Part shown: in pieces, positions 28,196-45,027 of the stretch
Numbering within the stretch: the stretch's first letter is position 1
Layout: each line of letters opens with the position of its first letter
Assembly: GCA_020849625.1 (NCBI GenBank)
Contig: JADLFV010000109.1
Coordinates: 1 to 64,000 of the forward strand
Source of the DNA: Phycisphaeraceae bacterium
GTDB taxonomy: Bacteria; Planctomycetota; Phycisphaerae; Phycisphaerales; Phycisphaeraceae
Length of the DNA stretch: 64,000 nucleotides
Reading direction: 5' to 3'
Program-made: the position numbers and the translations under genes
The notes under the pieces: generated by a model
What the model was told of the DNA's origin: nothing
The model's input: only the letters and a program-made list of their open reading frames with translations
Databases searched by the model: none

Positions 28196-28993
28196 TCAGA
28201 TTGTTGTGCTGCGCGCATGATCAGCAGCCAGCAGCGCCGCGCCCAATGCGCCGGTCAATTGCGGTTCGGGTGACAGCGCCAGCGGATGATCGATGGCTTC
28301 ACTGAGCACGCGCCGCATGCCGCGGGTCCGCGCCACACCGCCGGTGAACACAACCGGGCAGGTCAGACGTCGGCCGGCCATGGAGGCGATACGCCGGGCG
28401 ATGGCCAACTGCACGCCGGCGGCAATGTCGCAGGGTGCTTGACCGCCGGCCAGCAGGCCGATGATCTCCGTCTCCGCGAAGACGGCACACATGCTGGAGA
28501 TCGTGGCCGGTTGCTTGCTGCCCTCAGCCAGTTCGCCAAGCTCGTTCAGATTGACGCCGAGTCTGCGCGCCACCAGCTCCAGGAAGCAGCCGGTCCCTGC
28601 GGCGCAGCGATCGTTCATGGTGAAATCCTCAACACGTCCCTGCGCGTCCAGGTGAATCACCTTCGAGTCCTGGCCGCCGATCTCGATGATGGAGCGCGTG
28701 TTCGGCAAATGCTTCTGCACGCCGCGGGCATGGCAGGTGATTTCGGTGATGGCCTTGTCAGCGAAATCAAGCAGGTGACGAGCGTAACCCGTGGCGACGA
28801 CGAAGCCCACGTCCTGCATCGTGTGCCCGGCCTCCTGCAAAACACGATCCAGCACCCGCTGGGCGTGGGCGGCCTGATCGGGGCTCGAATCTTCCAAATC
28901 ACTGGCCAGCACGCCGGGTTCCGTCCCATTGTCAGTTGACAACAGCACCACCTTGACGGCTCGTGACCCGGCATCGATACCTGCAACAATCAT
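28196..28993 (-). CDS. BadF/HgdC-type ATPase, activator of a 2-hydroxyacyl-CoA dehydratase-like enzyme
   Basis: A 265-residue ASKHA-fold ATPase. GIDAGSRAVK is phosphate loop 1, IIEIGGQDSK and GGVA the other nucleotide motifs. C130 (NDRCAAGTGCF) and C169 (SSMCAVFAETE) are 39 residues apart, the spacing of the two cysteines that hold the dimer-bridging [4Fe-4S] cluster in HgdC. It therefore should drive ATP-dependent one-electron reduction of the partner reductase. It is last in a five-gene operon, its ATG overlapping the previous stop (ATGA), and would serve either the dehydratase-like pair or the double-cubane protein or both. Confidence 0.9.
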   Translation of the reverse strand: MIVAGIDAGSRAVKVVLLSTDNGTEPGVLASDLEDSSPDQAAHAQRVLDRVLQEAGHTMQDVGFVVATGYARHLLDFADKAITEITCHARGVQKHLPNTRSIIEIGGQDSKVIHLDAQGRVEDFTMNDRCAAGTGCFLELVARRLGVNLNELGELAEGSKQPATISSMCAVFAETEIIGLLAGGQAPCDIAAGVQLAIARRIASMAGRRLTCPVVFTGGVARTRGMRRVLSEAIDHPLALSPEPQLTGALGAALLAADHARSTTI

Positions 28994-30369
28994 GATCGCC
29001 TCCGGGTATGCACGATTTCCATCAGGGCTTCCAGGCGCGTCCGCAGCGCAGGCTCCACCGTATCACTGATCGGCGGCACTTCAATTTCCAGGACGGGCAG
29101 CCCAAGCTCTCGTCTGATCATCTTCCCGATCACGTCGCCCTCGTAAGCACAATGGCTCGCCCCCGGAATGCGGCTGATAATCACTGCTTCACTGCCGAAA
29201 TCCTTCGCCTGTTGACACGCGCGCTGTCCGCGATCGCCAACCGTGCCCACCATTGGATCGCTCAGGGCACAGCGGGCCAATGCCTCGAAAGGCTCGAGAT
29301 CCTGGGGGATCGGCTCCAGCGCGTGACAGAACATGTAGTCGCTGCCGGCGATGCGGCCGCCCACCTTCTCCAGCAGGTTCATCACACGCAGGTCGGCCAC
29401 GGGATTGATCCAGAACACCCGCACCGCATCCTTCTCCAGGACACCCACACCTTCCTGCGCCCGCTGCTGCACCTCGTCCAGCAACGCCTCCAGCACGGCC
29501 AGCGACTCCGGCTGATCCGAGCAGAAGTGGATGGCCAGCATTTCCGCAATCAACATCTCGAGGGCCGGCAATGGACAGGGATCAACCGTGTAAGCAAGCC
29601 GGCGCAGTTCGTGGAGCGTTTGTCGCACTTTGTTGGCTTGTTGAAAGCCGCGTTGCAACCGGGTCGCATCGAGGCGCTGGCCGGTCAACTGCTCCAAGGC
29701 TCGGGCCACGCGACGCAGCTCTCGGCTCACGAATGCCACCTGCTGCGGCGACACCGTGAAACCCGTCGGCAGCAACACGGTCGGCTCTCCGGGCGCGGGC
29801 GAGCGCCTCGGCGGCATCTCCCACCAGACGATCGGATGACCAAGTCCCTCGATCCGCTGGGCAATGGCGGAAAAATCATCACACACCGCGCCCACGCTGC
29901 ACAGCAGCATGTCGGGGATGGGAAAATGATTGCCCGTGACAAATGCACCGGCCATGGCCCGCACGGGGCAGAACGATTCATCCAGTCCCAGCGAATCCGC
30001 CACGCGCAACAGTTTATCACTGTGCCGCATGACGCAGGGTGTCCACCACGCGCCGTCGGGATAGAAAGCCACGACGTTATCGAGGGCATAAGCCAGCACC
30101 GGCACGGTGCCCAGGTCTTTCATCGTGCCGACGATGCACTTGCCGGCCATGCGGGCGTCGTGCAGCCGATCTTCTTCGCTGAGCAGAAAATTCCACAGGC
30201 GCAACGCAGCCGGCGAGTTGTCGAATTGCAACTCGCACAGGCGCAGGTCGCCATCCTGGACGTGGCGGCCGAGCGGACCACCGTAGGAAGGCTCCATCAT
30301 GCCCGCGCGGCAAAGCTCGCCATGGCGGCGATCCCACTGCTGCAGCGAGATGACGGCCGGGGCGCCCAT
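28990..30369 (-). CDS. 2-hydroxyacyl-CoA dehydratase-like subunit (HgdB/BcrB family)
   Basis: The 459-residue protein resembles the D-component/benzoyl-CoA reductase subunit family: G-T-M-K-D-L-G near residue 80, the GNHFPIPDMLLCSVGAVCDD segment, the linker helices and the late VISRIPGASHCAYEGDVIGKMI with DTVEPALRTRLEALME at the end. Several cysteines (in CPVRAM, LLCSVGAVC and SHCAYEG) could bind an Fe-S cluster. It lacks obvious CoA-pathway neighbours, so the substrate is unknown. Its start shares one base with the preceding stop (TGATG), and its stop overlaps the activator start, implying stoichiometric co-translation. Confidence 0.75.
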   Translation of the reverse strand: MGAPAVISLQQWDRRHGELCRAGMMEPSYGGPLGRHVQDGDLRLCELQFDNSPAALRLWNFLLSEEDRLHDARMAGKCIVGTMKDLGTVPVLAYALDNVVAFYPDGAWWTPCVMRHSDKLLRVADSLGLDESFCPVRAMAGAFVTGNHFPIPDMLLCSVGAVCDDFSAIAQRIEGLGHPIVWWEMPPRRSPAPGEPTVLLPTGFTVSPQQVAFVSRELRRVARALEQLTGQRLDATRLQRGFQQANKVRQTLHELRRLAYTVDPCPLPALEMLIAEMLAIHFCSDQPESLAVLEALLDEVQQRAQEGVGVLEKDAVRVFWINPVADLRVMNLLEKVGGRIAGSDYMFCHALEPIPQDLEPFEALARCALSDPMVGTVGDRGQRACQQAKDFGSEAVIISRIPGASHCAYEGDVIGKMIRRELGLPVLEIEVPPISDTVEPALRTRLEALMEIVHTRRRS

Positions 30370-31361
30370 CAGTGCAGCATCTCCATGAAGGCGGCAATCC
30401 GTCCCAGCGCACGTTGCGGGGCACTCGCATCTACGTCGAGGTCAAGGTCAAGCACGGGAACACAGGCCGAGGCTTTGATCCGAGCCACCTCCGCATGCCA
30501 CAGATCGCACCAGAGGTTTCGTCGCAAAATCAGACCGCGCACGTGGCGATGCGCCATGCGCTCGTGCAGCCAGTGAAACAAACCGTCATTGGGCCGCTGG
30601 CGAACGTGCGGCATAGCCAGATAGGCCGCGGCCAACGCTTCCAGGGGATCGTCAGCCAGCAATTGCGCGTCGAAGGGCCTCGGCAACCCGCGCTCGCCGT
30701 AGTCGGTGGCGTCCAGCACCACGCGGCCTCCGTGCTGTTCGATTGCGTCGTACAACCACCACTGATAGCGCGGCACTGTCGAGCCGAGCAGGGCGATGGG
30801 GGTATGGGAGGCTGACTCATCCGTGGCGTGATCCGGCGCGGCAGGTGAGTCATCTTCGGTCATGTCCCCGTGGAGTTTTGCAACTGCATCAGCGTGTGGT
30901 CGGCCGCGCAGGTCATCGAACATGGCACGCATGGCCTGACGCTCGCGGTCGTAATCCATCATGTTATGTCGCAGTTGCTGCGGCGTGGGCGATTGGCCGC
31001 CGATCTGTTCCAGGAAGCGTCCCAGGCGGAGCAATTCATCACGATAGCACTGTCTGGCGGCGCTGGTCTGCCACGTGGCGGGGACATGAAACAACAGCAC
31101 CGGCGGCGAGGAAGGATCGATCAACCATTCGCTGACGCGGCGGATCTGGTCACAGACGGCAGCCACCACGATCCCCACCACATCCCGGCGGCTGGATACT
31201 TCCGCCACGAACGCCCGTGCGCAGGAGCAGCAACCGTCTTGGGAAACACCCTCACGCGTTGCCGCATCAGAGATCCGCAACGTCGGCCGCCACGGCTGCA
31301 ACTGATGCGCGGCGATCCACTCCGGCGGAACGTATGCCGAGTTGTAGCCGACGCATGGCAT
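30369..31361 (-). CDS. 2-hydroxyacyl-CoA dehydratase-like subunit (short paralog)
   Basis: This 330-residue protein is a shorter relative of the same family, read from the ATG at 31361 (MPCVGYNSAYVPPEWIAAH, the typical Y-x-P-x-E-W/I-I entry). Cysteines in DGCCSCARAF, AAVCDQIRR and LWCDLWHAE occupy the places of the three cluster-binding cysteines. An Asp/Glu-rich linker (about 170-200) interrupts the fold. With its 459-residue neighbour it probably makes a heterodimer like HgdA/HgdB. It starts 13 nt after the double-cubane gene's stop. Weak ribosome site. Substrate unknown. Confidence 0.7.
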   Translation of the reverse strand: MPCVGYNSAYVPPEWIAAHQLQPWRPTLRISDAATREGVSQDGCCSCARAFVAEVSSRRDVVGIVVAAVCDQIRRVSEWLIDPSSPPVLLFHVPATWQTSAARQCYRDELLRLGRFLEQIGGQSPTPQQLRHNMMDYDRERQAMRAMFDDLRGRPHADAVAKLHGDMTEDDSPAAPDHATDESASHTPIALLGSTVPRYQWWLYDAIEQHGGRVVLDATDYGERGLPRPFDAQLLADDPLEALAAAYLAMPHVRQRPNDGLFHWLHERMAHRHVRGLILRRNLWCDLWHAEVARIKASACVPVLDLDLDVDASAPQRALGRIAAFMEMLH

Positions 31362-31374
31362 GACAGTCTCGGGA

Positions 31375-32595
31375 TCAGGTGTGGGCGGTCTGAGGCCGAC
31401 TCTGGACCGTCTCGAACAACGCTTCAATGCGGACGGCGATGCGGGCGCTGTCGGCGGGTGCGTAATCGGTCATGATGCGCAGGTAAGGCAGGCCCAGTTG
31501 CTCTTCGGCCAGTTGTTTGACCAGGGCCGACTCGATGTCGTATGTCAAACAACCCTGCCAGATCAATTCGATGACGCACCGAGGGCGATACGCGCGCGTC
31601 AATTGCCGCAGCAGGTCGAAGCGGTTCGTGTTGGGGGTCATCACCGAGCAGGGCAGATGGAAGTATTTGGCTGCGATGGCATCGATGGGATCACCGCCAG
31701 TGGCGACGTCCTCGGTGATTGGCTTTAGCCCGGTGCAGTTTTCCATGGCCACCACGCAACCGCCGTGGCTTTCGATCAGATCGATGACCCGCTCCGCTCC
31801 ATGGACGGTGGGCACGCCGGTCATCAGCACGCGCACAGGAGACGGGGCAGTGTGTGATTGTTTGTGGTCACGCAGATGCTGGAGGATCTGTTCGTAGGCC
31901 TGCAGGTCGGAGCCTATCCCGCTGATGCTGCTCTTGAGGTTCAGCAGTTGTCGGCCGGTCAGTGGCGGGTGCTCGCGCCGCATCAGTTCCGCCAGTTGTC
32001 GCCGCAGACTGCGCTCGCGGTTCATCAACGTGATCGCCTGGCGCAGCTTCTCGTCGGTGATCCGCACGTTGAATCGCTGCTCCAGTTCGGTGCGAAACTT
32101 GACCAACTCGGCCCTCCAATGGAGCAGGGCGTCGGGATCGTTCGGTTTCTGCGGCAGCTCCAGGATGTAGACCGGACGCTGCTGGGCTAGCAGTTCGTAC
32201 ATCTTTTTCTTGGCGTCGCAGGTGGTCTCAGCCACGATCAGGTCCGCCATCTCCTGGAACGGATTGTTCTTAAGCAGGTGATAGCCGAACGTGCTGCGGA
32301 TCAGCGGACAGATGCCCGGCGAGAGCACGGTCTCCGCGGCTTCCGCGGTCTTCTGCGAACCACCGCACAGGCACACGGGCACCGCGCCGGCCGCCATGAT
32401 CAACTCCCGTGGCGTGAACTCGCACATGATGCCCACGATCGGCTTGCCTTGCTCCTTGGCGCTGCGGGCGTAGCTCAGACAGTGCTCGATCATGTGGTCA
32501 AAGTGAGACAGCAGCCCGGCCGCGCTGGCTGGGCAAGGCGTCTTCGTGCTGCCACAACAGGTGTCCTCGGCGGAGCCGGTGCATGGTTCATTCAA
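31375..32595 (-). CDS. Double-cubane-cluster-type anaerobic reductase (2-hydroxyacyl-CoA dehydratase superfamily)
   Basis: A 406-residue protein like the DCCP/YjiM group: VGIMCEFTPRELIMAAGAVP with CLCGG, then C96 (GICPLIRS), C126 (ETTCDAKKKMYELL) and a second set at about C287, C316 and C349 (IWQGCLTYDIES). This two-fold three-cysteine pattern fits the [8Fe-9S] double cubane. Such proteins carry out ATP-driven low-potential reductions with a BadF-type ATPase. An added N-terminal tail is cysteine-rich (PCTGSAEDTCCGSTKTPCP). The start is TTG 32595 with GGGAGG 8 nt before; it overlaps the methyltransferase stop (TTGA). Reduced substrate unknown. Confidence 0.8.
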   Translation of the reverse strand: MNEPCTGSAEDTCCGSTKTPCPASAAGLLSHFDHMIEHCLSYARSAKEQGKPIVGIMCEFTPRELIMAAGAVPVCLCGGSQKTAEAAETVLSPGICPLIRSTFGYHLLKNNPFQEMADLIVAETTCDAKKKMYELLAQQRPVYILELPQKPNDPDALLHWRAELVKFRTELEQRFNVRITDEKLRQAITLMNRERSLRRQLAELMRREHPPLTGRQLLNLKSSISGIGSDLQAYEQILQHLRDHKQSHTAPSPVRVLMTGVPTVHGAERVIDLIESHGGCVVAMENCTGLKPITEDVATGGDPIDAIAAKYFHLPCSVMTPNTNRFDLLRQLTRAYRPRCVIELIWQGCLTYDIESALVKQLAEEQLGLPYLRIMTDYAPADSARIAVRIEALFETVQSRPQTAHT

Positions 32596-33407
32596 GGGGC
32601 GACCTCCCTTTTTCGAGCAATGAATCGACCTTGGATGAGCTTTCTGTCGTGGGCCAGTTGACGGACGAAGTGCAGCTCAACGCCAAGCTGGGCCAGCATG
32701 GATTGATCGAAGCCGATCAACTGGAGGGCGTCAAACGTGAGTTGCTTTTCGACCATCTGGATGTAGAGATCGGCGTGTTCAGGGAATCGCCCCGTGTCGG
32801 CCGCCTCGATCACATGGCAGCCGGCATCCTGAAGCAGGCGGCGATAATCCTGCAGCGAGGCCAATGAAGGGAATTTCATGAATGACAGGAAGCGCTTGGC
32901 CTGCTCGTCGTTCAGCGGGCTTGGTCCTTGGCACCAGTCGGTGAACGCGATGACGCCACCGGGTCGTACCAGTCTTGCCGCCTCGGCGATCAGTGCGGGC
33001 TTATCCGCCACGTAGCACCAGGCGTCCTCACCCCAGACGAAGTCAACAGCACCGCCAGGCAGGCCCGTGTCGATCGCTTCGGCCAGCACGAATTCGATGC
33101 GGGTGTCCAGTCCTTCAGCTTGACAGCGACTGCGGCCGAGATCCACCCTCTGTGCGGTGGCGTCCACACCCTGCATCGCAGCCACGTTGCGGAAACGGAC
33201 CAGAAACCGCATGCCCGCGCCGGTACAGCAGCACAAGTCCACCCCGCGACTGCCTGTTTTGATGTGCGCTCGCTCCGCCAGATCCTGCGATGAGCACAAG
33301 CCGCCGATGTGAATCTGTTCGCCCATGAGCAACTCCCACAATCGACCTTCTGCACCGCTGTAAACGCGTTGCACATCGGCCAACGTGATCGTGACGAGTT
33401 GATGCAT
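32592..33407 (-). CDS. Class I SAM-dependent methyltransferase
   Basis: The 271-residue protein is a Rossmann-type methyltransferase: motif I reads GVDLCCCTGAGMRF, with three consecutive cysteines where G-C-G is usual, then GVDATAQRV, the FVLAEAIDTGLP acidic loop, FVWGEDAWCYV and LVRPGGVIAFTDW. The ATG at 33407 has GGGAGG in front. It leads the operon with the double-cubane and dehydratase-like proteins, overlapping the next gene by 4 nt, so a joint pathway is likely. The cysteine-rich motif and context would suit a thiol, metalloid or selenium substrate, but that is a guess. Confidence 0.75.
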   Translation of the reverse strand: MHQLVTITLADVQRVYSGAEGRLWELLMGEQIHIGGLCSSQDLAERAHIKTGSRGVDLCCCTGAGMRFLVRFRNVAAMQGVDATAQRVDLGRSRCQAEGLDTRIEFVLAEAIDTGLPGGAVDFVWGEDAWCYVADKPALIAEAARLVRPGGVIAFTDWCQGPSPLNDEQAKRFLSFMKFPSLASLQDYRRLLQDAGCHVIEAADTGRFPEHADLYIQMVEKQLTFDALQLIGFDQSMLAQLGVELHFVRQLAHDRKLIQGRFIARKREVAP

Positions 33408-33454
33408 GAAACCTCCCGGCATGTTGTGTGATGAGGCGATGTCTCAATTGTGAA

Positions 33455-33562: not shown

Positions 33563-34972
33563 GTGAAACGTTCGCAAAAGTGGGACAGATTTGTCCTCGC
33601 AGCGGCGCTCGTGTCACTGTGCCTGTGTCCGGTTCCGGCCCGGGCGGATGAGCCGGCAGGCGGTGACGGCACGACCTGGCTCAGTTACTGCCAGAGCAGC
33701 GACACCAACTCGCTATTGCGATATGTGAGCCGTCAACAGTTAAAGATCGAAAAGGATCGCCCGGCCGATCTGGCATTGCCCGCGGCGCTGGGTGAGCAAG
33801 TGCAGGTCACCCGATGGACCACGCCCATGGACGCGGCGGGGTTCCGCCGGGTTGCCTTGTCGCGCAGCGCCGCCAGTGACCTGTGCGACCAGTTGGTGAT
33901 CGACAGCAACGGTGACGGCCGCCTGGACGACGAAACGATTTGCCAGCCGCATGACCAGCGGCAATACGGCTCGGGCCAGGGCCAGACGATGTTCGGCCCC
34001 GTCGCCATGCACTTCGACAGCGAGGACGGCCCGATCCTCTATCACCTGAACTTCACGGTTTACAGCAGCGGTCTTAACGAGGATTACTACGTGATGGCCA
34101 CGACCGCCTGCTGGTATCAGGGGACCGTGGTCCTCAACGACAGGCCCGTGACGTGCCAACTGATCGACTACAACGCCAATGGCACGTTCAACGACGTCTG
34201 CGACCAACAGGAGTCAAGCTACGCATCGGCCGACCGTGTGCGGTTCACCGACAATGCCGAGATCGAGCCGATGTTCGCCGGCCGGTACGTGCGTGACGGA
34301 CAGCAGTTGTACGAGTTCAGCGCGGCCAAAGATGGGGCCTACGTGACGATTCGTGAAGCTGAGGGCCCTGCCACCGGCTTCATCAAGCCGCAGGACGGTT
34401 TTTATCAAGTCAAGGTCTATGGCCCCCAAGGCTCCTTTGTGATCTCGAAGGAAGACGAGCAGCAGGTGCCCGTCGGCCGATACAAGCTGGCATCGTGGCA
34501 GCTCCAGCCCACCCCCGTCAGCGGAAAGCAATGGCAGTTCACGGGTGCAGGCTTTCCCGAGCAAAGCGGGGTGGACGTTGCCACCGATGCGGTGGTCGAG
34601 TTGAACCTGGGCGGGCCATGGACAGCGAAGTTGGAGGATCAGGTTCGCAATCGCCAGCACACGTTTAATCAAGTGGTCATCGGCCGTTACGGCGAGCATG
34701 TGAACGTCGCGTACGCCGACGGCAGTCAGCCGCCGGCCCCGCGCCTGCGCATCGTCAGCGATGACGGGAAATACGACAAGACCTTCAAGTTCGAGTATGG
34801 CTGAGGCGGCACCTGTTCGCTCTCATGGCGAGAGCCCACCAACGTCAAAGGACCCTTCACCGCCACGCTGCTGCTGGATTGTCCGGTTGAGTTGAAGCAG
34901 GAGCCGCAGAAGATCGGCCAAGTGACTGATGCCGATAGTGCGGCTCCGCGCGCCGCCAAGGCCGGCCAGTGA
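33563..34972 (+). CDS. Candidate new selenoprotein: secreted protein with in-frame TGA (Sec414)
   Basis: The GTG start at 33563 gives a signal peptide (cleavage near ARADE) and a beta-rich protein with two calcium-loop-like segments (DSNGDGRLDDE at 114-124, DYNANGTFND at 202-211). The frame meets TGA at 34802 but continues for 55 well-formed codons to TGA 34970: FKFEYG-U-GGTCSLSWREP, then VKGPFTATLLLDCPVELK. The extension keeps normal codon usage and a U-x3-C redox-type pair. I recall secreted planctomycete proteins with Cys in an E-Y-G-C-G-G-T-C context, which would be Cys homologs, but this was not searched. A hairpin starts 14 nt after the TGA, and selA, selB, selD and tRNA-Sec are in the same 10 kb. 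Function unknown; probably extracytoplasmic redox. Confidence 0.75.
34819..34835 (+). promoter_or_regulatory. Candidate bacterial SECIS stem-loop
   Basis: GCTCTC-ATGGC-GAGAGC: perfect 6-bp stem, 5-nt loop with GG. The stem begins 14 nt after the in-frame TGA (34802-34804) and the loop 20 nt after, within the range known for bacterial SECIS elements read by SelB. The first two loop bases are A and U, not the usual G. Confidence 0.5.
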
Positions 34973-35059: not shown

Positions 35060-37453
35060 ATGAAATTGGCTCATCTGTTGATGGTCAGCTTCCTCGTGCT
35101 GATCACGATCACCGCGCTTGTGTTCGCCCAGGAGCAGGCTCCGCTGCCGGTAGCCCTGGATGGCAAGGTCGTCAACACGCTCGGTGCACCGGTTCCCGAA
35201 GCGGACATCGTCGTGTACGGGGCCCGCCAGGATAACTTCGTCGGCTGGATCAACACGTTGCTGGCTCAGGCCAAATCAGACAGCGAGGGGCAATTCCATA
35301 TCGAAGCCCCCAATCTTCCTGATTACGACCGCGTCCTGGTGGTGTCACGGCATGACGGACTTGCCCTGGGATCGTGGAACGGGGCCATGGCCGAGTTGCG
35401 CTACCCGGTGATGCTGCGTATGGACGAGCCGCAGCAGATCAGCGGCGTGGTGGTTGACGTTTCCGGGCAGCCGGTGGCCGGGGCCACGATCAAAGCGATG
35501 CTGCAGTGGCACACCGACGGCCGGCCGCACGTCGTGGTGGGAGACAAGTTGATTCCGGAACTGATGGTCAACAGCGATCAGCAGGGCGGCTTCGTGATCA
35601 ACGCGGTGCCCAGGGGTGCTTTGGCATCGCTTGCAGTCACCGGCCGGGGATTTGCCGGCATTGTCTGGCCCAACAGGACGCCCAGTATCCCCGCTGGATC
35701 GCAGGATACTTGCATCGAGTTAACCAGGGAGGCGACCATCAACGGCGTCGTGCAATGTCACGAGCCCGGGCAATCTGTTGCAGGCTTGCAAGTAAGCGCC
35801 CTGTTTGCGACCAGCTTTCTCAACCCCTGCCGGACGACGACAGATGCGGACGGGCACTTCACCGTCACGGGATTGCCCGCGGGCTCGGTGCAACTGGTGG
35901 TGATGTCGGAGGCACAGGACCAGGAACTGCCCCGGGTCGGCCAGGCTGAGGGTTTGACACTCCAGGCCGGCCAGGCGATGGACAATGTCACGATCGAGCT
36001 TCAGCGGGCTGCGCTGATGGTCGTATCGGTGACCAGTTGGAAAGATCAACATCCCCTGGCGGACGCGAAGATCAACGTGCGCGCGGCCAATAACAGCTAC
36101 GGTTTTGCCTGCCACACCGATCCGAATGGCACCGCTCGGATTTTCGTACTGCCTGGAAACTACCTGCTCGGCGCTGAGCATCCCATGTGCTCGCCCACAA
36201 ACAGTCAGCAACTGTGTCAGGCCACACCCGGCCAGACGCAAGAGGTGTCGCTTATATTGACCGACGCCATGATGCTGCAGGGTGAGGTGGTCAATGCTGA
36301 GGGTCAGCCCGTGCCTGATGTGGAAGTCCAGGTGGTGCCGCAAAACGGCGAGCGCTCGGTGCGCACAGATCCGCAGGGCCGATTCAGCATGCGCTGGCAG
36401 CCGGCTGAATGGGTCGAAGCCGGCACGTCCATGCTGGTGGCGCGTCACGAGGCCAGCAACAGCGCCGCCGCGGTCGTGATCGAAGATCCCGCCTTGCCCG
36501 TGAATGTGAAGCTCGAAAGCGCCTGTGCGTTCACCGGCCGCGTGCTCAACGATCAGGACCAGCCGCTGCACGGTGCGAACATCATGCTGATGATTTACGG
36601 CAGTCGCTGGGGCGCACCCCTGAGTGATCAGCGATCGATCCAGACTGATGCGGATGGACGATTCCAGCTTGCCGTGCTGCCGCTGGGCATCGAGTATCAC
36701 ATCACCGCCAGCGCCAACGGTTACGGACAGAACAATTGGCAGCAGGAAGCTTTGGACGGCGGCACAATCGACCTGGGTGAGGTCAAACTACCTCGGGCTG
36801 ATCAGAAGATTACCGGCCTCGTGGTTGACAGTGCCGGCGAACCGCTGGCCAATGTGCAGGTGCAGATCCACGGCGAGCAGCAGCCCTATCGTGATGCCAC
36901 TAGCGACAAAGACGGTCGCTTCACCATCACCGGCGTCTGCCCCGGGGGCGCCAACCTGTATGCCCACATTCAGAATCCATATCGTTACGGCCAGACCTAT
37001 GTGAATGTCGGCGGCGGCGATGAAGTGAAACTCATCGTCTCCTCCAGCGACTTATCGCAAAGGCCGGCCGCCAAGCCGCAGCCCAAGCCGTTGACCGGCC
37101 GGCAACTGCCCGACATGACCACGCTCGGCCTCGAAGCAGCGCCGCAAGGTAAGCCGGTCCTGCTGCTGTTCTTCGACGCTCGGCAGCGGCCGTCACGTCA
37201 CGCAGTCAAGCAGATTCAGGCCCAGGCCGCCGCCTCGACCAGCGCCTACTTCGCTCTCGTGCAGGTGGGACCGGTCGAAGATTCGTTGCTGGAGGGCCTT
37301 CACATCACGCTGCCGCTGGCCAGGGCCACCGAGGCGGTGGATGAAACCTGCCTGCAATGGGGTTTGCCCGCCCTGCCCTGGTACATCCTGGCCGACCCGA
37401 CCGGCAAGGTGATCCTGTCGGATTCGACGTTGACCGCCGGTGCGAAAAAGTAA
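35060..37453 (+). CDS. Secreted multi-domain protein: carboxypeptidase-regulatory-like repeats plus cysteine-less thioredoxin fold
   Basis: The 797-residue protein has a signal peptide (LAHLLMVSFLVLITITALVFA). About six CarboxypepD_reg/CnaB-like beta-sandwich repeats follow, each opening with G-x-V-x-x-x-x-G-x-P-(V/L) and closing with T-D-x-x-G-x-F. The last 130 residues are a thioredoxin-like domain (KPVLLLFFDARQRPSRHAVKQI ... GLPALPWYILADPTGKVI) in which no Cys remains at the usual CxxC site. It is co-directional with, and 87 bp from, the selenoprotein candidate, so the two may work together: one with a redox Sec, the other with a Cys-less redoxin fold. AGGAAGGGG precedes the ATG. Confidence 0.75.
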   Translation: MKLAHLLMVSFLVLITITALVFAQEQAPLPVALDGKVVNTLGAPVPEADIVVYGARQDNFVGWINTLLAQAKSDSEGQFHIEAPNLPDYDRVLVVSRHDGLALGSWNGAMAELRYPVMLRMDEPQQISGVVVDVSGQPVAGATIKAMLQWHTDGRPHVVVGDKLIPELMVNSDQQGGFVINAVPRGALASLAVTGRGFAGIVWPNRTPSIPAGSQDTCIELTREATINGVVQCHEPGQSVAGLQVSALFATSFLNPCRTTTDADGHFTVTGLPAGSVQLVVMSEAQDQELPRVGQAEGLTLQAGQAMDNVTIELQRAALMVVSVTSWKDQHPLADAKINVRAANNSYGFACHTDPNGTARIFVLPGNYLLGAEHPMCSPTNSQQLCQATPGQTQEVSLILTDAMMLQGEVVNAEGQPVPDVEVQVVPQNGERSVRTDPQGRFSMRWQPAEWVEAGTSMLVARHEASNSAAAVVIEDPALPVNVKLESACAFTGRVLNDQDQPLHGANIMLMIYGSRWGAPLSDQRSIQTDADGRFQLAVLPLGIEYHITASANGYGQNNWQQEALDGGTIDLGEVKLPRADQKITGLVVDSAGEPLANVQVQIHGEQQPYRDATSDKDGRFTITGVCPGGANLYAHIQNPYRYGQTYVNVGGGDEVKLIVSSSDLSQRPAAKPQPKPLTGRQLPDMTTLGLEAAPQGKPVLLLFFDARQRPSRHAVKQIQAQAAASTSAYFALVQVGPVEDSLLEGLHITLPLARATEAVDETCLQWGLPALPWYILADPTGKVILSDSTLTAGAKK

Positions 37454-37540
37454 TTGCTGGATTCGAGTCTTCTCGGGCCAACTTTTTCCGGATCGAAAGC
37501 CGCCGATGCGGTAACATGGTTGTGCCGTTGGAGGTCCGAG

Positions 37541-38956
37541 GTGGGTTCAACGATCCAGAAAGACTTGTTGCGCAGCTTGCCCTCGGTCGGCGAATTGTTG
37601 GCCAGTGCCCGGGCAGCGGCCTGGCTGCAACAACAGCCGCAGACGCTGGTGGCGGACTGCCTGCGGGCGGCGGTGGATCAACTGCGACAGCAGATTCTCA
37701 ATGACGGCGGCGGACGATGCGGGCCGCAGCACGTCAACGCCGATGCGGTGCTGGACCGGGCTGAACTTGAGTTGAAGCAGCGCACCCAGCCGCGCCTGCG
37801 GGCCGCCATCAATGCCACCGGCATCATTCTGCACACGGGGCTTGGTCGGGCGGTGCTGCCCGGTTGCGTGGTCGAGAGCATGGCTGCGGAACTGGATGGT
37901 TACGTGACATTGGCGGTGGATCGCCAATCGGGGTTGCGCATCAATCGCGATCAGATGGTCGAGCCGTTGCTGTGCGAATTGACCGGAGCGGAGGCGGCCA
38001 CGGTGGTCAACAACAATGCGGCTGCCACCATGCTCGTGCTCACAGCCTTGGCGGCGGGGCGCGAGGTGATCGTCTCGCGCGGCGAGCTGATCGAGATCGG
38101 CGGGGCGTTCCGCTTACCTGACGTCATGGCCCAGAGCGGCGCGCAGATGGTGGAAGTGGGCACGACCAATCGTACGCACCTGCGCGATTATGAATCGGCC
38201 ATCACCGAGCAGACCGCGCTGCTGTTCCGCGCCCATCCCAGCAATTTCCGAATCATCGGGTTCAGCAGTGCCGTGCCGGTGCCGGAACTGGCTGAGTTGG
38301 CTCATGCCCGGAAACTGGTGCTGGTCGATGACCTGGGGGCCGGTGCATTGATCGGCTTGGAGCATTTCGGTCTGCCGCATGAGCCGACGATGGCTGAGTC
38401 GATCGCAGCTGGTGCGGACGTGGCCTTAGCAAGTGCCGACAAACTGATCGGGGCCGGGCAGGGCGGCATCATCGTGGGCAAGCGCGGGCTGATCGAGAAA
38501 ATCCGCAAACACCCGCTGGCCCGGGCGTTCCGCGCGGACAAGACCTGCCTGATGGCCATGGAGCGCACGCTGCCGCTGTTCCGCGACATCGAGCGGCTCA
38601 AGCGCGATCATCCGCTCTATCGCATGCTGGCCACCCCGATGTCCGAACTGAACCACCGGGCTGAGGCGCTGGCAGCCCAACTGAAGCAAGTTGCACCCGC
38701 AGCGGAGGTCCAGGTCAGCGACGACGTCGGCTACCTCGGGTCCGGCTCACTGCCCACCGAAGCATTGCCCACGCGCGTGGTCACCATTCGCAGCGCAAAT
38801 CTCAAAGCCGATCCCCTGGCCAAAGCGTTGCGATTGGATGAAACCTGTGTATTCACCCGCCTGGCTGGCGACGCGGTGGTCATGGACATGCGCACCATCA
38901 CCGACGCGCAGATCGAGCTTATTGCCGCCGCCGTGGCTCGTGTACTTTCAATGTGA
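37541..38956 (+). CDS. selA: L-seryl-tRNA(Sec) selenium transferase
   Basis: SelA converts Ser-tRNA(Sec) to Sec-tRNA(Sec) with selenophosphate. The 471-residue PLP enzyme shows INATGIILHTGLGRA, VNNNAAATML, SRGELIEIGGAFRLPD, VGTTNRTHLRDYE, FRAHPSNF, DDLGAGAL and the PLP lysine K301 in SADKLIGAGQGGIIVGK. I start it at the GTG at 37541, which has GGAGG 5 nt before and gives the typical N-terminus (IQKDLLRSLPSV); the open frame upstream is unrelated. selB follows after 12 nt. Confidence 0.95.
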   Translation: MGSTIQKDLLRSLPSVGELLASARAAAWLQQQPQTLVADCLRAAVDQLRQQILNDGGGRCGPQHVNADAVLDRAELELKQRTQPRLRAAINATGIILHTGLGRAVLPGCVVESMAAELDGYVTLAVDRQSGLRINRDQMVEPLLCELTGAEAATVVNNNAAATMLVLTALAAGREVIVSRGELIEIGGAFRLPDVMAQSGAQMVEVGTTNRTHLRDYESAITEQTALLFRAHPSNFRIIGFSSAVPVPELAELAHARKLVLVDDLGAGALIGLEHFGLPHEPTMAESIAAGADVALASADKLIGAGQGGIIVGKRGLIEKIRKHPLARAFRADKTCLMAMERTLPLFRDIERLKRDHPLYRMLATPMSELNHRAEALAAQLKQVAPAAEVQVSDDVGYLGSGSLPTEALPTRVVTIRSANLKADPLAKALRLDETCVFTRLAGDAVVMDMRTITDAQIELIAAAVARVLSM

Positions 38957-38968
38957 CCAGCCAACGTC

Positions 38969-40957
38969 ATGGCGCGAAAAAATATCATGCTGGGCACCGC
39001 CGGCCATGTCGATCACGGCAAGACGGCCCTGGTGAAGCTGTTGACCGGCTGCGACACCGATCGCCTGGCGGAGGAAAAACGCCGCGGACTCACCATCGAA
39101 CTGGGTTTCGCTCCCTGTCGCATGGCGGACGATCGCATCGTGGGCATCGTCGACGTCCCCGGGCATGTCTCGTTCATCCGCCAGATGGTGGCCGGGGCGC
39201 ACGGCGTTGACGTGATGATCCTGGTGGTCGCGGCAGACGACGGCGTGATGCCGCAGACGCGCGAACACCTGGACGTACTCACCTTCATGGGCGCCCGGCA
39301 CGGCGTCATTGCCCTGACCAAGATCGACATGGTCGATGCGCAGATGCGCGAGCTGGCCGTGCAGGATGTGCAGCAGTTCGTGCAGGGCACATTCCTGGCC
39401 GACGCGCCAATCTGTCCGCTGTCCAACATCACGGGCGAGGGATTCGATGGTTTCTTCGAGGCACTCGGTCAACAGGTACAGGCGTGTCAGCCGCGCGTGA
39501 CACATGGACCGTACAGGCAGTGGGTCGAACGTTCGTTTACAGCCCACGGCTTTGGTGTGGTGGCATCGGGGGTGCCATGTGCCGGGCGGGTGCAGGTGGG
39601 TGATTGCCTGCGCGTGCTGCCGGGCGATCGCCGCGGGCGGGTGCGATACCTACAGGTTTACGGTGAAAATTCCGATGCAGCCCAGGCCGGCGAATGTGTG
39701 GCGGTCAATCTGGCGGACCTCGAACTTGACGACACGCCGCGCGGCGTGCTGCTGACTGACTCGCCGACACTTGGTCTGGTGCAGCGCTGTGCGGTGCGTC
39801 TGCGCCTGCTGGATCGCATGCGCCGGCCGATCAAGGATGGTGCGGAAGTTCACCTGCATGTGGGCACCGCCCATTGCCAGGCAACGCTGGTTCCGTTGGA
39901 AGCTGATCCGTTGGCGCCGGGCGCTGACACGCTGGCACAACTTCGCCTGGATCGACCGCTGCCGCTGGCGCCGGGGGACCGCTTCGTGGTGCGCTCTCAT
40001 GTGGAGGAGGAGGGCGGGCTGACCACCATCGGCGGCGGGCGCGTGCTTGACACCTCGGAAAGAAGATTCCGTCGCCAACGTGTGGAAACGATTTCACCAT
40101 TGCTGGAGCGGGAAAAAACAATCGATGACCCCCCGTTGTGGTGCCTGACTATGCTGATCGAGGCCGCCGGGCCGCGGACGGTGCAGGAGCTGGCCTCTGC
40201 CGCGCATCTGTTGCCCGATGAGGCAGACACCCACGTGCGCCGACTATGCGAACAGGGACAGGTGGTGCTGCTCGACAATAAACGCTTCATGGCCCAGCGC
40301 ACGATTGACCAGACCATGATGCGCATGGCCGATCACCTTAAGCAGGCGCACCAGGCTCATCCCGAGCAACTGGGGGTGAACGCCGGGGAACTGCTCCAGG
40401 CGCTGGCGTGCGATACGGCGGTTTTCGATGCGGCGGAGTCTGACCTGATCAGGCGCAGTATGGTGGTGCGACAAGGTGAACTGTTGGCCTTGGCCGAGCA
40501 TCGGCCGCGCATGGATGAGGGCGAGCGACGCCTGCTCGAACAACTGGCCGAAGCGTTTCGTAAGGATCACAGCATGCCGCGGCGTCCGGCCGATCTGGCC
40601 GAAGCGCTGAAACAGCCGGAGAAGAAGGTGCGGCAAATGATCCAGGTGCTTGCCGATCGCGGCGATCTGGTTCACCTGAGCGAGCAGATCTTCATGCACC
40701 GGGATGCGGTGGCTGCCGCCGAGGCTGTGGTGAGAACGCTCTTTGCACAGGCGGATTCCGGGCATTCCGCAACTTCCGGCACTTCCGGGGGCGGGGGTGA
40801 GGGGCGATTTACCACGGCTGAGTTTCGCAATGCCTTGGGTGCCAGTCGCAAATATGCCATTCCATTGCTGGACCATTTTGACCGCACGCGGTTGACGATC
40901 CGTCACGGCAGTGTGCGCACACCGGGGGTTTTGGTGCGAAACAATTCGCCACAATAG
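38969..40957 (+). CDS. selB: Selenocysteine-specific elongation factor
   Basis: A 662-residue translational GTPase that carries Sec-tRNA to UGA codons marked by a SECIS. GTAGHVDHGKT (9-19), DVPGHVSF, and TKID are the G motifs; then come EF-Tu-like domains II/III and a C-terminal array of winged helices ending in the typical FTTAEFRNALGASRKYAIPLLDHFDR that binds the SECIS. A low-complexity stretch before the last winged helix (HSATSGTSGGGG) is encoded by tandem TTCCGG units including one CTTCCGGGGG, and looks inserted. It lies between selA and selD. Confidence 0.95.
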   Translation: MARKNIMLGTAGHVDHGKTALVKLLTGCDTDRLAEEKRRGLTIELGFAPCRMADDRIVGIVDVPGHVSFIRQMVAGAHGVDVMILVVAADDGVMPQTREHLDVLTFMGARHGVIALTKIDMVDAQMRELAVQDVQQFVQGTFLADAPICPLSNITGEGFDGFFEALGQQVQACQPRVTHGPYRQWVERSFTAHGFGVVASGVPCAGRVQVGDCLRVLPGDRRGRVRYLQVYGENSDAAQAGECVAVNLADLELDDTPRGVLLTDSPTLGLVQRCAVRLRLLDRMRRPIKDGAEVHLHVGTAHCQATLVPLEADPLAPGADTLAQLRLDRPLPLAPGDRFVVRSHVEEEGGLTTIGGGRVLDTSERRFRRQRVETISPLLEREKTIDDPPLWCLTMLIEAAGPRTVQELASAAHLLPDEADTHVRRLCEQGQVVLLDNKRFMAQRTIDQTMMRMADHLKQAHQAHPEQLGVNAGELLQALACDTAVFDAAESDLIRRSMVVRQGELLALAEHRPRMDEGERRLLEQLAEAFRKDHSMPRRPADLAEALKQPEKKVRQMIQVLADRGDLVHLSEQIFMHRDAVAAAEAVVRTLFAQADSGHSATSGTSGGGGEGRFTTAEFRNALGASRKYAIPLLDHFDRTRLTIRHGSVRTPGVLVRNNSPQ

Positions 40958-41046
40958 GATTGTGCCGCGCAGCCTGTGCAGTAGAATGGACGGGTTCGCA
41001 GCGAGGTGTTTCACGCCCGAAGCCCGCAGCCTGTCCGGTGCAAAAC

Positions 41047-42612
41047 ATGACCGTGGATATCCAAAAACGCCGTCGTGTCATGGCTCGTTCCCGTGAACTT
41101 GGTCACTGCATCTGCGATCCGCGGAGACCGTGCCCGTGTGACGTGTTCACTTCGCAGGGCATCTGTCCCTGTGCCGGCGAGCGGCCGGATCCGGTGCCCG
41201 CCGAGCAGGTGCGCTTGACGGAATTGGTGCGCAATGCCGGCTGCGCATCCAAGATCGCGCCGGGTGATCTGGAGGAGATCCTGTCGCGCCTGCCAGCGGT
41301 GGATGATCCACGCGTGCTGTGCGGCGTGGCGGCTGGTGACGATGCGGGGGTGTATCAGCTTGACGGGAAATGCCTGGTGCAGACGGTGGATGTCATGACG
41401 CCGTGCGTGGATGACGCCCGCACCTTCGGACGGATTTGTGCCGCCAACTGCGTGTCGGATGTGTATGCCATGGGTGGCACACCGTTGACCGCGCTGAGCA
41501 TCTTGGCGTTTCCCAGCGAAACGATGTCGAGCCAGATCATGTACGAAATGCTGGCCGGGGCAATGGAAGTGCTGGCTGAGGCCGAGGTGGCGCTGATCGG
41601 CGGGCACAGCATCAAGGACGAGCAGATCATGCTCGGCTTCGCCATCACCGGCACCGTCGATCCGCAACACGTCACCGAGCGCGGCAAGGCGGCCGTGGGC
41701 GATGTGCTGGTGCTGACCAAGCCGCTGGGCAGCGGCGTGCTCAACTTCGCCAAACAGATCGGCCGCGCTCATGAAGCGGGACTGCGCCAGGCCGAGCAAT
41801 CGATGGCCATGTTGAACCGCGTTGCTTCACAGGCTATGACCCGCTGCAATGCCACGGCCTGCACCGATATCACCGGCTTCGGCCTGTTCGGGCACCTGGC
41901 GGGTATGGTGCGGCACTCGAAGGTTACTGCTCGCATTGACGTGGAGCATTTGCCGGCTTTCGATGGGGCACTGGCATTGCTGGCTGGCAACGTCATCCCC
42001 GGAACGATTGAACGCAACAGTGAATACGTCGGCGATGACCTGGTGCGTGAACCGGGCACCGATGAATCGCACGTGCTGCTGGGGCTGGACGCTCAGACCT
42101 CTGGCGGCCTGCTGATCGCCATCAGCCCAGCGCGGGTGGACGAACTGTTGAATCTGCTGGCCGAAGGCGGTGTCAGCGGCCACGTCATCGGGCGCGTCAG
42201 CGAAGCTTCGCAGGGTCGTATCATCGCTGCCGGCAGTGGGGCGGTGGTGAGTGAGAGAGTGATTGCTCGTCGTGAACCTGCGCCGGCAGTCGTGCCGGAA
42301 GCGGCCGGTACGAGCATTGCGGAGGCTCGGCGTTCGTTCGGATCGCTGATGCGCAGCACGGCTCAAGCGGGAGCGGTGGATCAGAAGACCAAGGCACTGA
42401 TCAATATCGCGCTGGTGACCATCCAGCGTTGCGGGCCATGTTTGCTGTCGCATCTGGCCAAGGCGCGCACATTGGGCATTGCGCAGGAGCAGATCGACGA
42501 GGCCATCTGGTGCGCCATCGCCATGGGCGGCGCGTGCGTCAAAGTGTTTTATGATGAGCTGATGCAGTCGCAGGCCGAAGCCGACAAAGGCACTGGCAAA
42601 TCCTGCTGTTGA
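41047..42612 (+). CDS. selD: Selenide, water dikinase fused to a Cys-rich N-terminal and an AhpD-like C-terminal domain
   Basis: The 521-residue protein makes selenophosphate. The central AIR-synthase-like core has the active pair C66/K69 (NAGCASKI), GDDAGVY, LVQTVDVMTP, NCVSDVYAMGG, GGHSIKD and the GFGLFGH motif; catalytic position 17-equivalent is Cys, not Sec. Two additions are unusual. Residues 20-45 carry six cysteines as C-x-C, C-x-C, C-x-C (CICDPRRPCPC, CPCAGE). The last 100 residues form an AhpD/carboxymuconolactone-decarboxylase-like helical domain with CGPC (462-465), H469 and a KSCC end. Both suggest an attached redox function. I start at ATG 41047; ATG 41080 is an alternative. Confidence 0.85.
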   Translation: MTVDIQKRRRVMARSRELGHCICDPRRPCPCDVFTSQGICPCAGERPDPVPAEQVRLTELVRNAGCASKIAPGDLEEILSRLPAVDDPRVLCGVAAGDDAGVYQLDGKCLVQTVDVMTPCVDDARTFGRICAANCVSDVYAMGGTPLTALSILAFPSETMSSQIMYEMLAGAMEVLAEAEVALIGGHSIKDEQIMLGFAITGTVDPQHVTERGKAAVGDVLVLTKPLGSGVLNFAKQIGRAHEAGLRQAEQSMAMLNRVASQAMTRCNATACTDITGFGLFGHLAGMVRHSKVTARIDVEHLPAFDGALALLAGNVIPGTIERNSEYVGDDLVREPGTDESHVLLGLDAQTSGGLLIAISPARVDELLNLLAEGGVSGHVIGRVSEASQGRIIAAGSGAVVSERVIARREPAPAVVPEAAGTSIAEARRSFGSLMRSTAQAGAVDQKTKALINIALVTIQRCGPCLLSHLAKARTLGIAQEQIDEAIWCAIAMGGACVKVFYDELMQSQAEADKGTGKSCC

Positions 42613-42624
42613 CAGGCAACGCGA

Positions 42625-43488
42625 TCAAGCTTCGGTAGCGGAGGCAGGCAGGTGCTTCTGCGGCGATTCCGGTTCGCGCCCGGCGATGGTCACCGTGATG
42701 GCGGGGCAATTGGTGCATTCCAGGCAGCGCACGCACGAGCCGTTGTTGATCGACTGGTCCAGCTTCACGTCGTACTTGCACCGGCTGCGGCAGAGATTGC
42801 ATTCCGTGCAGCGGCCGGCGTTGTAGTGCAGGTAAAGCAGGCTGCCTCGATTGAACAGGGCAAAGATCCCGCCCAGCGGGCAGAGCACCCGGCACCACGG
42901 CCGATAGGTGAACAGGGCCAGACCCAGAACCAGGATCGTCACCGTGATCTTGATGGTGTTGGGGATAAACAACTGGCCGCGATAGATTGACTGGCCCATC
43001 GCCCCTTCAAGGGCCCCGGCTGGACAGACGTTGCAGAAAAACAGCCAGTGCTCTGCGCCCAGCAGTACCGGCACGATCAGCACCAATCCGATCAATGTCA
43101 GGTATCTGCCATGGCCCATCCACGACGGCAGCGAAAACTTGGGCGTGGGAATCCTGGCTAGCAGATCCTGCATGAAGCCGAAGGGACATGCCCAACCACA
43201 TACGGCCGTGCCCACCAGCGCCCCGACCACCACCAGCACGCCGATGGCCATCAGCGGGATCACGTGCACGGCCGCGAACTGAGCCATTAGACCGATAGGG
43301 CACGCCACTGTCGCCAGCGGGCAGGCATAACAGTGAAAGACACAGCCGGGCACCGCGTGCCAACGCAGCATCAGGGGATCGAGCCACACCGCTAGAAAAC
43401 CGGTCTGCACCCATGGTCGGATGCGGGCAAGGTTCCAGCGTCGCTGTTTTGTGATATTTGCGATCATTGGTCTGGCCATGGCACGCAT
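42625..43488 (-). CDS. Polyferredoxin-type membrane protein (NapH/YccM-like 4Fe-4S protein)
   Basis: A 287-residue membrane protein with about five helices. It has cytoplasm-facing cluster motifs CGWACPFGFMQDLL and CRVLCPLGGIF, cysteine groups CVFHCYACPLATVACP and CNVCPAG, and a C-terminal 2x[4Fe-4S] ferredoxin-like part (CTECNLCRSRCKYD, CVRCLECTNCP). This family passes electrons from quinol or ferredoxin across or along the membrane. It could supply low-potential electrons to the reductase operon 9 kb away, but that is inference. It converges on selD (12 bp apart). The start is uncertain among ATGs at 43488, 43479 and 43467. Confidence 0.8.
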   Translation of the reverse strand: MRAMARPMIANITKQRRWNLARIRPWVQTGFLAVWLDPLMLRWHAVPGCVFHCYACPLATVACPIGLMAQFAAVHVIPLMAIGVLVVVGALVGTAVCGWACPFGFMQDLLARIPTPKFSLPSWMGHGRYLTLIGLVLIVPVLLGAEHWLFFCNVCPAGALEGAMGQSIYRGQLFIPNTIKITVTILVLGLALFTYRPWCRVLCPLGGIFALFNRGSLLYLHYNAGRCTECNLCRSRCKYDVKLDQSINNGSCVRCLECTNCPAITVTIAGREPESPQKHLPASATEA

Positions 43489-43507
43489 GACCCGAGGATT
43501 ACTTGAC

Positions 43508-43855
43508 TCACGTCGGGCAAAAGTCATCCTGGGTCTGATCGTCATTCTTGAACGCGGCTTGAGCATCGCCGTCATTCTGATTATTCAGCAGAGACACGAT
43601 GGTCTGATCCAGAGCAGACGGGGCCGGCTCCGTTCGGCGCGGCCCGCCCACCGTGACCGCCTGATTCAAACGCCATTCCGAGATCTTCACCGAGCCATCC
43701 CGGAACACATCATGCACACGACTCGGCGCCACGCCCGCCAGCAGCAGCCCCAGTCCCGCCAGCGCTATCGCCAACCACCAGGGACGCCGCCCCGTGGGAT
43801 GAGCCCAGCGATCGATCGGAGGTTGTGGTTTGATGCGCAGACGTTTGCGGGTCAT
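43508..43855 (-). CDS. Small single-helix membrane protein of unknown function
   Basis: The 115-residue protein has a basic N-terminus (TRKRLRIKPQPPIDRW), one transmembrane helix (WWLAIALAGLGLLLAGVAP) and a polar outer domain with an acidic, Gln/Asn-rich tail. AAAAGGGA precedes the ATG. It is 20 bp upstream of the polyferredoxin gene, so the two are likely one operon and it may be an accessory subunit. tRNA-Sec lies just upstream. I do not recognise the family. Confidence 0.6.
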   Translation of the reverse strand: MTRKRLRIKPQPPIDRWAHPTGRRPWWLAIALAGLGLLLAGVAPSRVHDVFRDGSVKISEWRLNQAVTVGGPRRTEPAPSALDQTIVSLLNNQNDGDAQAAFKNDDQTQDDFCPT

Positions 43856-43916: not shown

Positions 43917-44010
43917 CGGAGGTGCATGGGAATCGAACCCACCCGGGACTCATTCAAGCCCCACACTGGTTTTGAAGACCAGGAGCGTCACCAGACCGCC
44001 GGGCACCTCC
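43917..44010 (-). tRNA. selC: tRNA-Sec (anticodon UCA)
   Basis: Read on the minus strand: 8-bp acceptor stem GGAGGTGC/GCACCTCC with discriminator G, anticodon stem CTGG/CCAG around CTTCAAAA with anticodon TCA, a long variable arm (GTGGGGCTTGAATGAGTCC region) and a GGTTCGATTCC T-loop. The 94-nt length, UCA anticodon and 8-bp acceptor identify selenocysteine tRNA. CCA is not encoded. It completes the selA/selB/selD set 1.3 kb away. Confidence 0.92.
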
Positions 44011-44444: not shown

Positions 44445-44840
44445 TCAGGTGGCATCCCGCACCATCTCCAGTTGCATGGGTGTGAAACCTGCTGCGGACG
44501 TACTGCCGTAGAGCTGACGCGGGATGCGGAGGGCTGACTTTATGGCCTGCACTTGACCCGGGCAATGGTAGCTGCTGGCGTGCTTCCAGTAGGCCAGGAT
44601 CAGTTCGCCAATGGTTGAGCCACCGTCGTCATCCAGTCCGCTGGGGCGATTCAGCTGTGGCAGCCGCCGATCGTTGGATGCCCAGGCTCTGACCAATCGA
44701 GCATACCGCTCGTGTGATTCCGGTTCACCCCAGGGGCCGCAATAGAAATCGTGCCGTCGGCCGGTGGCAGAATCGGTCAACGTGACCACGGCTCGCCCGG
44801 ATGCTTTGTGCTGTCTGAGTAGGGGTTTGCGCTTCGTCAT
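44445..44840 (-). pseudogene. Truncated site-specific integrase (N-terminal part)
   Basis: The 131 residues match the start of planctomycete tyrosine recombinases as I know them: KPLLRQHKASGRAVVTLTD, FYCGPWGEPESHERYARL, a LxxAYWKHASSYH helix and IKSALRIPRQLYGSTSA. The frame stops after LEMVRDAT, so the whole catalytic domain (R-H-R-Y) is missing. It starts 115 bp from the 3' end of tRNA-Ala, the classical place for an integrase that used the tRNA as attachment site. Certainly inactive. Confidence 0.7.
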
Positions 44841-44881: not shown

Positions 44882-44954
44882 ATCTTGGGAATCCTGCTGC
44901 ACCGTCGAAGCGGGTTGATGTGCTAACTTCACATCACAGCACGAGTTGTCGAAG

Positions 44955-45027
44955 TGGAGCCAACCGGGATCGAACCGGTGACCTCCTGCTTGCAAAGCAG
45001 GCGCTCTCCCAGCTGAGCTATGGCCCC
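44955..45027 (-). tRNA. tRNA-Ala (anticodon UGC)
   Basis: Minus strand, 73 nt: acceptor GGGGCCA/TGGCTCC with A discriminator, D-arm GCTCAGCTGGGAGAGC, anticodon stem CCTGC/GCAGG with loop TTTGCAA (TGC), T-arm CCGGTTCGATCCCGG. CCA is not encoded. Intact, unlike its partial copy at 25110-25156. Confidence 0.95.

Follow-up and report, generated by a model that had tools for sequence, protein, structure and literature searches.

Glycine reductase selenoprotein A (GrdA) is small and cytosolic and carries a CxxU motif (see also PMC13188914). It has been described as a selenoprotein without Cys-containing homologs (PMC12013277). Selenoprotein catalogues depend largely on the pairing of Sec with Cys, through known or Cys-containing homologs; the most recent, from 2026, holds 119 families (PMC13188914), and the authors of deep-Sep have noted that filtering may remove proteins lacking Cys homologs (PMC12013277). 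In the bSECIS model, the element that follows a bacterial Sec codon has a stem of 4–16 bp, a loop of 3–9 nt, a distance from UGA to loop of 16–37 nt, a minimum free energy of −7.5 kcal/mol or lower, and a G at one or both of the first two positions of the loop, and some selenoprotein genes fail this model (PMC13188914). Double-cubane proteins have also been tied to selenium metabolism by others, according to work cited in PMC10418091.

Here we describe a gene within a 64,000-nucleotide stretch of a Phycisphaeraceae contig (JADLFV010000109.1), referred to below as the window, that almost certainly specifies a secreted selenoprotein belonging to a large, uncatalogued family; no experiment shows selenium in any member. 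The features of the locus are collected in Table 1.

Table 1. Features of the window around the proposed selenoprotein gene
Feature	Position	Strand	Description
Divergent operon	28196..33422	-	Five genes: methyltransferase, double-cubane anaerobic reductase, two more HGD-D proteins, BadF/HgdC-type activase
Proposed selenoprotein gene	33563..34972	+	469 aa with Sec414; signal peptide, beta-rich body, C-terminal Sec-bearing beta-sandwich domain (~residues 350–457)
In-frame UGA, proposed Sec codon	34802..34804	+	Residue 414; TGA at the aligned position in homologs
Coding extension	34805..34969	+	55 codons past the UGA, predicted to complete the C-terminal beta-sandwich
bSECIS-like hairpin	34819..34835	+	Stem 34819–34824 with 34830–34835; loop 34825–34829 (AUGGC)
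Next gene	35060..37453	+	Carboxypeptidase-regulatory repeats and thioredoxin-like tail (FFDARQRPSRH, no CxxC)
selA	37454..38956	+	
selB	38969..40957	+	
selD	40960..42612	+	Cys form; Cys-rich N-terminal extension, C-terminal AhpD/CMD domain
NapH/NosR-like gene	42625..43575	-	Ferredoxin membrane protein; beside family genes at 15 loci
tRNA-Sec	43917..44010	-	

The reading frame and its extension

A sequence-only reading of this DNA had proposed that a TGA interrupting the frame encodes Sec. The frame is as that reading described it: 413 sense codons run from a GTG start at 33563, directly preceded by AAAGGGGG, to the TGA, and 55 further in-frame codons (GGTCSLSWREPTNVKGPFTATLLLDCPVELKQ...AGQ) lead to a second TGA at 34970–34972. 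An open run of 55 codons is not rare on its own in the composition of the window (P ~0.2). The extension is protein-like, as had been claimed, with a coding log-odds per codon of 0.235 in frame versus −0.39 and −0.29 in the other frames, and its in-frame score was matched by none of about 3000 off-frame gene windows. Homologs run beyond residue 413 and align on either side of the UGA (for example, with 39% identity over 410 aa, E 5e-93). A lack of conservation past the UGA had been named as grounds for refuting the proposal; residues 415–451 are conserved in homologs. That GUGGTC and W422 never vary in the homolog set is partly a product of the pattern used for retrieval. A sequencing error at 34802 can be ruled out, because the same codon is TGA in more than 100 assembled genes from many genomes.

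Homologs and their distribution

Full-length protein searches of 100 relatives and 400 genomes of the same order returned only the window itself and noise, a consequence of the family's patchy occurrence and its divergence. Homologs were obtained by scanning for degenerate DNA patterns: G-[UCW]-GGTC-xxx-W in 392 Planctomycetota genomes and [FY]-G-[UC]-GGTC-xxx-W in genome_contigs, where the counts are lower bounds. These scans recovered at least some 125 G-[TGA]-GGTC genes, chiefly from Planctomycetota and Verrucomicrobiota, with true homologs recognized by conservation flanking the Sec position (FEYGUGGTCxYSWRVP...G...D.GPF). The genome_contigs contained at least 107 true loci: by hand count from record titles, about 71 from Planctomycetota, 18 from Verrucomicrobiota and 2 from Lentisphaerae, the rest being 5 from Sumerlaeota/BRC1, 5 from Hydrogenedentota, 3 unlabelled, and single MAGs labelled Riflebacteria, Omnitrophota and Nealsonbacteria, whose labels may be binning errors. 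Nearly all family sequences come from MAGs. The plasmid collection yielded no family member, and the motif matches in viral_contigs were all junk frames. A family profile built from 59 C-terminal domains found matches in 88 of the 392 Planctomycetota genomes, the window's own genome having a single copy and other genomes as many as seven. Beyond the GUGGTC set, about 45 more divergent relatives are conserved on either side of the TGA.

The window protein had no match in NCBIfam (release 20.0) at E up to 1, and its Sec region had none in Pfam. A search of the available literature for the motif or the family found no paper naming either, which does not prove absence everywhere.

The residue at the Sec position

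Every true homolog from the pattern scans carries TGA at the Sec position, although the patterns admitted Cys codons equally, and every TGC or TGT match considered as a Cys homolog proved to be a junk frame. The profile search was not bound to the motif pattern; 66 distinct hits were inspected, and these had TGA (57), Cys (2), Gly (1), Tyr (1) or a gap (5). Weaker profile hits without a stop often finish ahead of the Sec site, and only some were inspected. Homologs with Cys aligned to residue 414, which the sequence-only reading had advised looking for, do therefore exist and are very rare (the 2 of 66). One of them, CCGGGY (L227), pairs directly with Sec forms reading CUGGGF. The other (L226) comes from a genome (G757) that is 99% complete and has neither SelA nor a tRNA-Sec above the cut-off. 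Both use the codon TGC, and both lack the hairpin described below.

That reading also placed the Sec in a U-G-G-T-C redox motif, a description that holds for one subfamily only. Distant members retain Sec and lose the Cys at +4 (GUGGGG, as in GUGGGGWAS, and GUGGLN, GUGSQA and CUGGGF), so that Sec is the constant feature of the superfamily and a Sec–Cys pair is not its general mechanism. It remains possible, as a refinement of the Sec reading rather than an alternative to it, that the protein is a thiol/selenol oxidoreductase with a U-GGT-C redox pair of Sec414 and Cys418, and we hold this only tentatively. Cys418 is found throughout the GUGGTC set, where the pattern imposed it, but some profile hits free of that bias also keep it (GUGFTC, GUGGYC, GUGGAC, GUGGWC), and the neighboring NapH-like ferredoxin and thioredoxin-like proteins would suit such a role. 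Against it are the many relatives with Sec and no +4 Cys, and a predicted structure that is not a thioredoxin-like fold. A redox function for the window protein is an inference.

Domain architecture and predicted structure

Family members have about 430 residues ahead of the Sec, followed either by about 41–55 residues or by extra segments, including a terminal membrane anchor, polytopic-looking stretches, ankyrin repeats and LamG/F5-8C domains. Membrane-like segments of about 280–300 aa lie downstream of the UGA in dozens of members, while one member (L044) has ankyrin repeats inside 206 aa and another (L046) LamG/F5-8C domains across 500 aa in that position; the presence of domains this long past the UGA argues strongly for readthrough. 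Both signal peptides and membrane segments were assigned by eye.

AlphaFold2, run on 44 homologs with Sec modelled as Cys, gave a model with a pLDDT of 89.6 and a pTM of 0.85, in which the post-Sec residues are predicted to form strands (418–423 and 432–437) of the C-terminal sandwich; the Sec loop itself is less certain. A fold search with the C-terminal domain gave a best Z of 7.7 (rmsd 3.4 over 96 residues), within background. Foldseek gave no match with E below 0.001, and a profile search for a PDB relative found none. Weak matches to superoxide reductases and copper-bound FetP likewise fell within the background of common sandwiches. The fold searches return only generic sandwiches, and any match to Ig/FN3/macroglobulin-like domains is tentative.

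Tandem family genes were seen about 2.1–2.3 kb apart (L111 228–3056; also L106, L119, L126, L133, L171, L186 and L245), each pair comprising one gene with a long membrane-like segment past the Sec and one of soluble type. This arrangement suggests a two-component envelope system.

Genomic neighborhood

A homolog of the gene that follows in the window neighbors a family gene at 18 other loci. The active-site region of its thioredoxin-like domain reads FFDxxQRPSR in place of CxxC, a feature conserved, for example, in L117, L128 and L186; no Sec was found at the QRPSR site of this protein. The double-cubane anaerobic reductase of the divergent operon matches NF040772 above the cut-off. Operons of this type recur beside family genes, in many cases immediately downstream and in the same direction, in Planctomycetota, Verrucomicrobiota (L175, L177, L089), Hydrogenedentota (L125, L155) and Sumerlaeota (L114), and this conservation with sel genes across phyla suggests an undescribed selenium- or Sec-linked pathway.

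A more speculative refinement of the Sec reading, and one that can be put forward with limited confidence, is that the Sec serves as a cell-envelope ligand or trap for soft metals, or for selenium or metalloid species, in a selenium/metalloid island made up of the double-cubane reductase, the methyltransferase and the sel genes. The conservation of Sec alone would fit this, as would the fact that in four phyla the family gene is repeatedly found clustered with genes for the double-cubane reductase, the activase and the methyltransferase and with sel genes, and the reported tie of double-cubane proteins to selenium metabolism (cited in PMC10418091). The protein has no metal-binding motif and no known fold, however, and its resemblance to superoxide reductase and FetP is too weak to stand out from other sandwiches. 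Our best guess for the biochemical role is an extracytoplasmic redox or soft-metal site.

Farther along the window, an ORF at 44445–44840 resembles by eye the N-terminal part of an integrase and lies near a tRNA-Ala (44954–45027), possibly marking an integration site beside the sel cluster.

A SECIS-like element downstream of the UGA

The perfect hairpin previously noted 14 nt past the UGA is indeed present, with a 6-bp stem (GCUCUC/GAGAGC) that folds alone at −9.3 kcal/mol. Its stem, its 5-nt loop, its UGA-to-loop distance of 20 nt and its energy are all inside the limits of the bSECIS consensus. The loop departs from that consensus in having no G at its first two positions, while 90 of 128 relatives have G as the first loop nucleotide. 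The minimum-free-energy z-score of the downstream region (0.42 for this gene) was not unusual; since folding-energy z-scores were not discriminating, codon-shuffle tests were used in their place.

The 128 sequences of the GUGGTC set align without gaps from the UGA. Each of the six stem pairs is present in 95–98% of them, and all six occur together in 120. When synonymous codons were permuted within columns, among identical residues, 89.9 sequences had all six pairs (maximum 98), and when codons were redrawn from the same genes only 4.8 did (maximum 12). The stem base pairs covary (UA/CG, AU/UA), and this covariation accompanies coupled residues in the protein (RYSWRVP versus SLSWREP, that is, Y...V versus L...E). 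Among the divergent members, 38 of 45 have a perfect stem of at least 6 bp, compared with 12.0 in the control (maximum 20), and their loops are often GGU, UGG or GGC. The TGG within the hairpin loop was forced by the search pattern, and the shuffled controls preserve protein and not phylogeny, leaving shared ancestry uncorrected. Judged from sequence comparison, the evidence for the hairpin is decisive, the plain folding z-score being uninformative. The Sec reading calls for a SECIS-like element immediately 3′ of the UGA, and one is found there, its stem kept far above codon-shuffled controls.

Association with the Sec machinery

The sequence-only reading had put selA, selB, selD and tRNA-Sec within 10 kb of the gene and the gene itself two upstream of selA; the distances hold, and the order is right because a single gene intervenes. 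The SelD fusion is unusual in that its AhpD/CMD domain carries CxxC; the same N-terminal extension occurs in L089 (Verrucomicrobiota). Within loci of about 8 kb, Sec genes lie near family genes repeatedly (SelA 17, SelB 19 with two weak hits, SelD 13). A tRNA-Sec adjoins a family gene at several loci, and family gene and Sec machinery share a contig in G410, G696, G429, G669, G520 and others. Across the 392 Planctomycetota genomes, SelA is found in 78 of 88 with the family versus 168 of 304 without (Fisher p 2e-9, uncorrected for shared ancestry). Seven TGA-carrying genomes have no SelA. A tRNA-Sec is clearly present in two of these (G675, G651). The remaining five, without a clear one, are incomplete MAGs (72–90% complete), among them G447, which has two borderline tRNA matches barely over the cut-off. 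No Sec-type formate dehydrogenase scored over the cut-off in the window's genome.

It is very improbable that the UGA is suppressed or reassigned in some other way, whether by another tRNA, by decoding as Trp or Cys, or by programmed readthrough under the control of the hairpin. Hairpins that follow leaky stops are known from cases of programmed readthrough too, and Sec itself has not been directly observed. However, UGA terminates the window gene and 42 homologous genes and is therefore a normal stop there, the genomes carry SelA and tRNA-Sec with the gene placed among sel genes, and the clear replacement at this position is Cys and not Trp. The notion that the UGA is an ordinary stop, with the protein ending at residue 413 and the extension a relic or chance open frame, has next to no credibility: the chance of 55 open codons in this composition and the absence of a Pfam or NCBIfam family spanning the region allow it, but protein-level conservation across the UGA in more than 100 homologs, large domains past it, the in-frame coding statistics and the predicted strands of the extension all contradict it. 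The assignment of residue 414 as Sec is thus supported by comparative evidence, namely conservation of the TGA, conservation of the protein across it, selection on the hairpin, and linkage and co-occurrence with the Sec machinery; incorporation has not been shown experimentally.

Proposed mechanism and significance

In the Sec reading, the UGA would be decoded by SelB and Sec-tRNA-Sec, helped by the downstream hairpin and supplied by machinery encoded in the same gene cluster; without Sec decoding, translation would end at residue 413. The full-length protein would be exported, an inference from a signal peptide assigned by eye. Sec414 is predicted to lie in a loop between two strands of an Ig/FN3-like C-terminal beta-sandwich that would be complete only once the UGA is read. 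The Sec is presumed to be the working residue, serving either extracytoplasmic redox chemistry or soft-metal binding, a choice that is undecided, and the local selenium island may provide the selenium for this single residue.

The family is probably a superfamily, large and old, whose exported beta-sandwich proteins use Sec almost exclusively, occur in one or several copies in a genome, bear varied fused domains and span Planctomycetota, Verrucomicrobiota, Lentisphaerae, Sumerlaeota and Hydrogenedentota; it may be a main reason why these bacteria keep the Sec machinery, and present discovery methods probably discard it because so few Cys homologs exist. With more than 100 members in several phyla, it is the type of case that discovery based on Sec/Cys pairing would miss, and the near-absence of Cys forms may be why it is so far uncatalogued among selenoproteins. 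Ordinary gene callers probably cut its members at the UGA, so that part of a conserved domain is lost. The family gives a purpose to the Sec cluster of the window's genome, where no Sec-type formate dehydrogenase was found, and places Sec at the cell envelope in a non-thioredoxin setting. It also adds about 170 SECIS-like elements whose covariation is clear, and it links double-cubane reductase clusters with exported selenoproteins.

Comparison with known systems

None of the motifs in the catalogue of 119 families clearly fits the window protein (PMC13188914). The only possible one is the GUxG of 'Hypothetical protein DG' (NF049953; PMC13188914, PMC12013277), which alone can be read as G-U-x-G. 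DG differs in having Cys homologs and being found in Desulfosediminicola, and the window protein has no NCBIfam match, though the presence of NF049953 in the scanned copy is unconfirmed. Thioredoxin-fold selenoproteins are alpha/beta proteins with UxxC or CxxU, whereas the model of the window protein is an all-beta sandwich with the motif UxxxC. The window operon resembles described double-cubane reductase/activase clusters (NF040772; PMC10418091) in having one NF040772 reductase, two relatives and an activase, but it joins these to a methyltransferase and an exported selenoprotein, a combination that we have not found described. For a family that is nearly Sec-only, GrdA is the closest precedent; the window family differs from it in being larger, exported, built on a beta-sandwich and multi-domain, with rare Cys forms.
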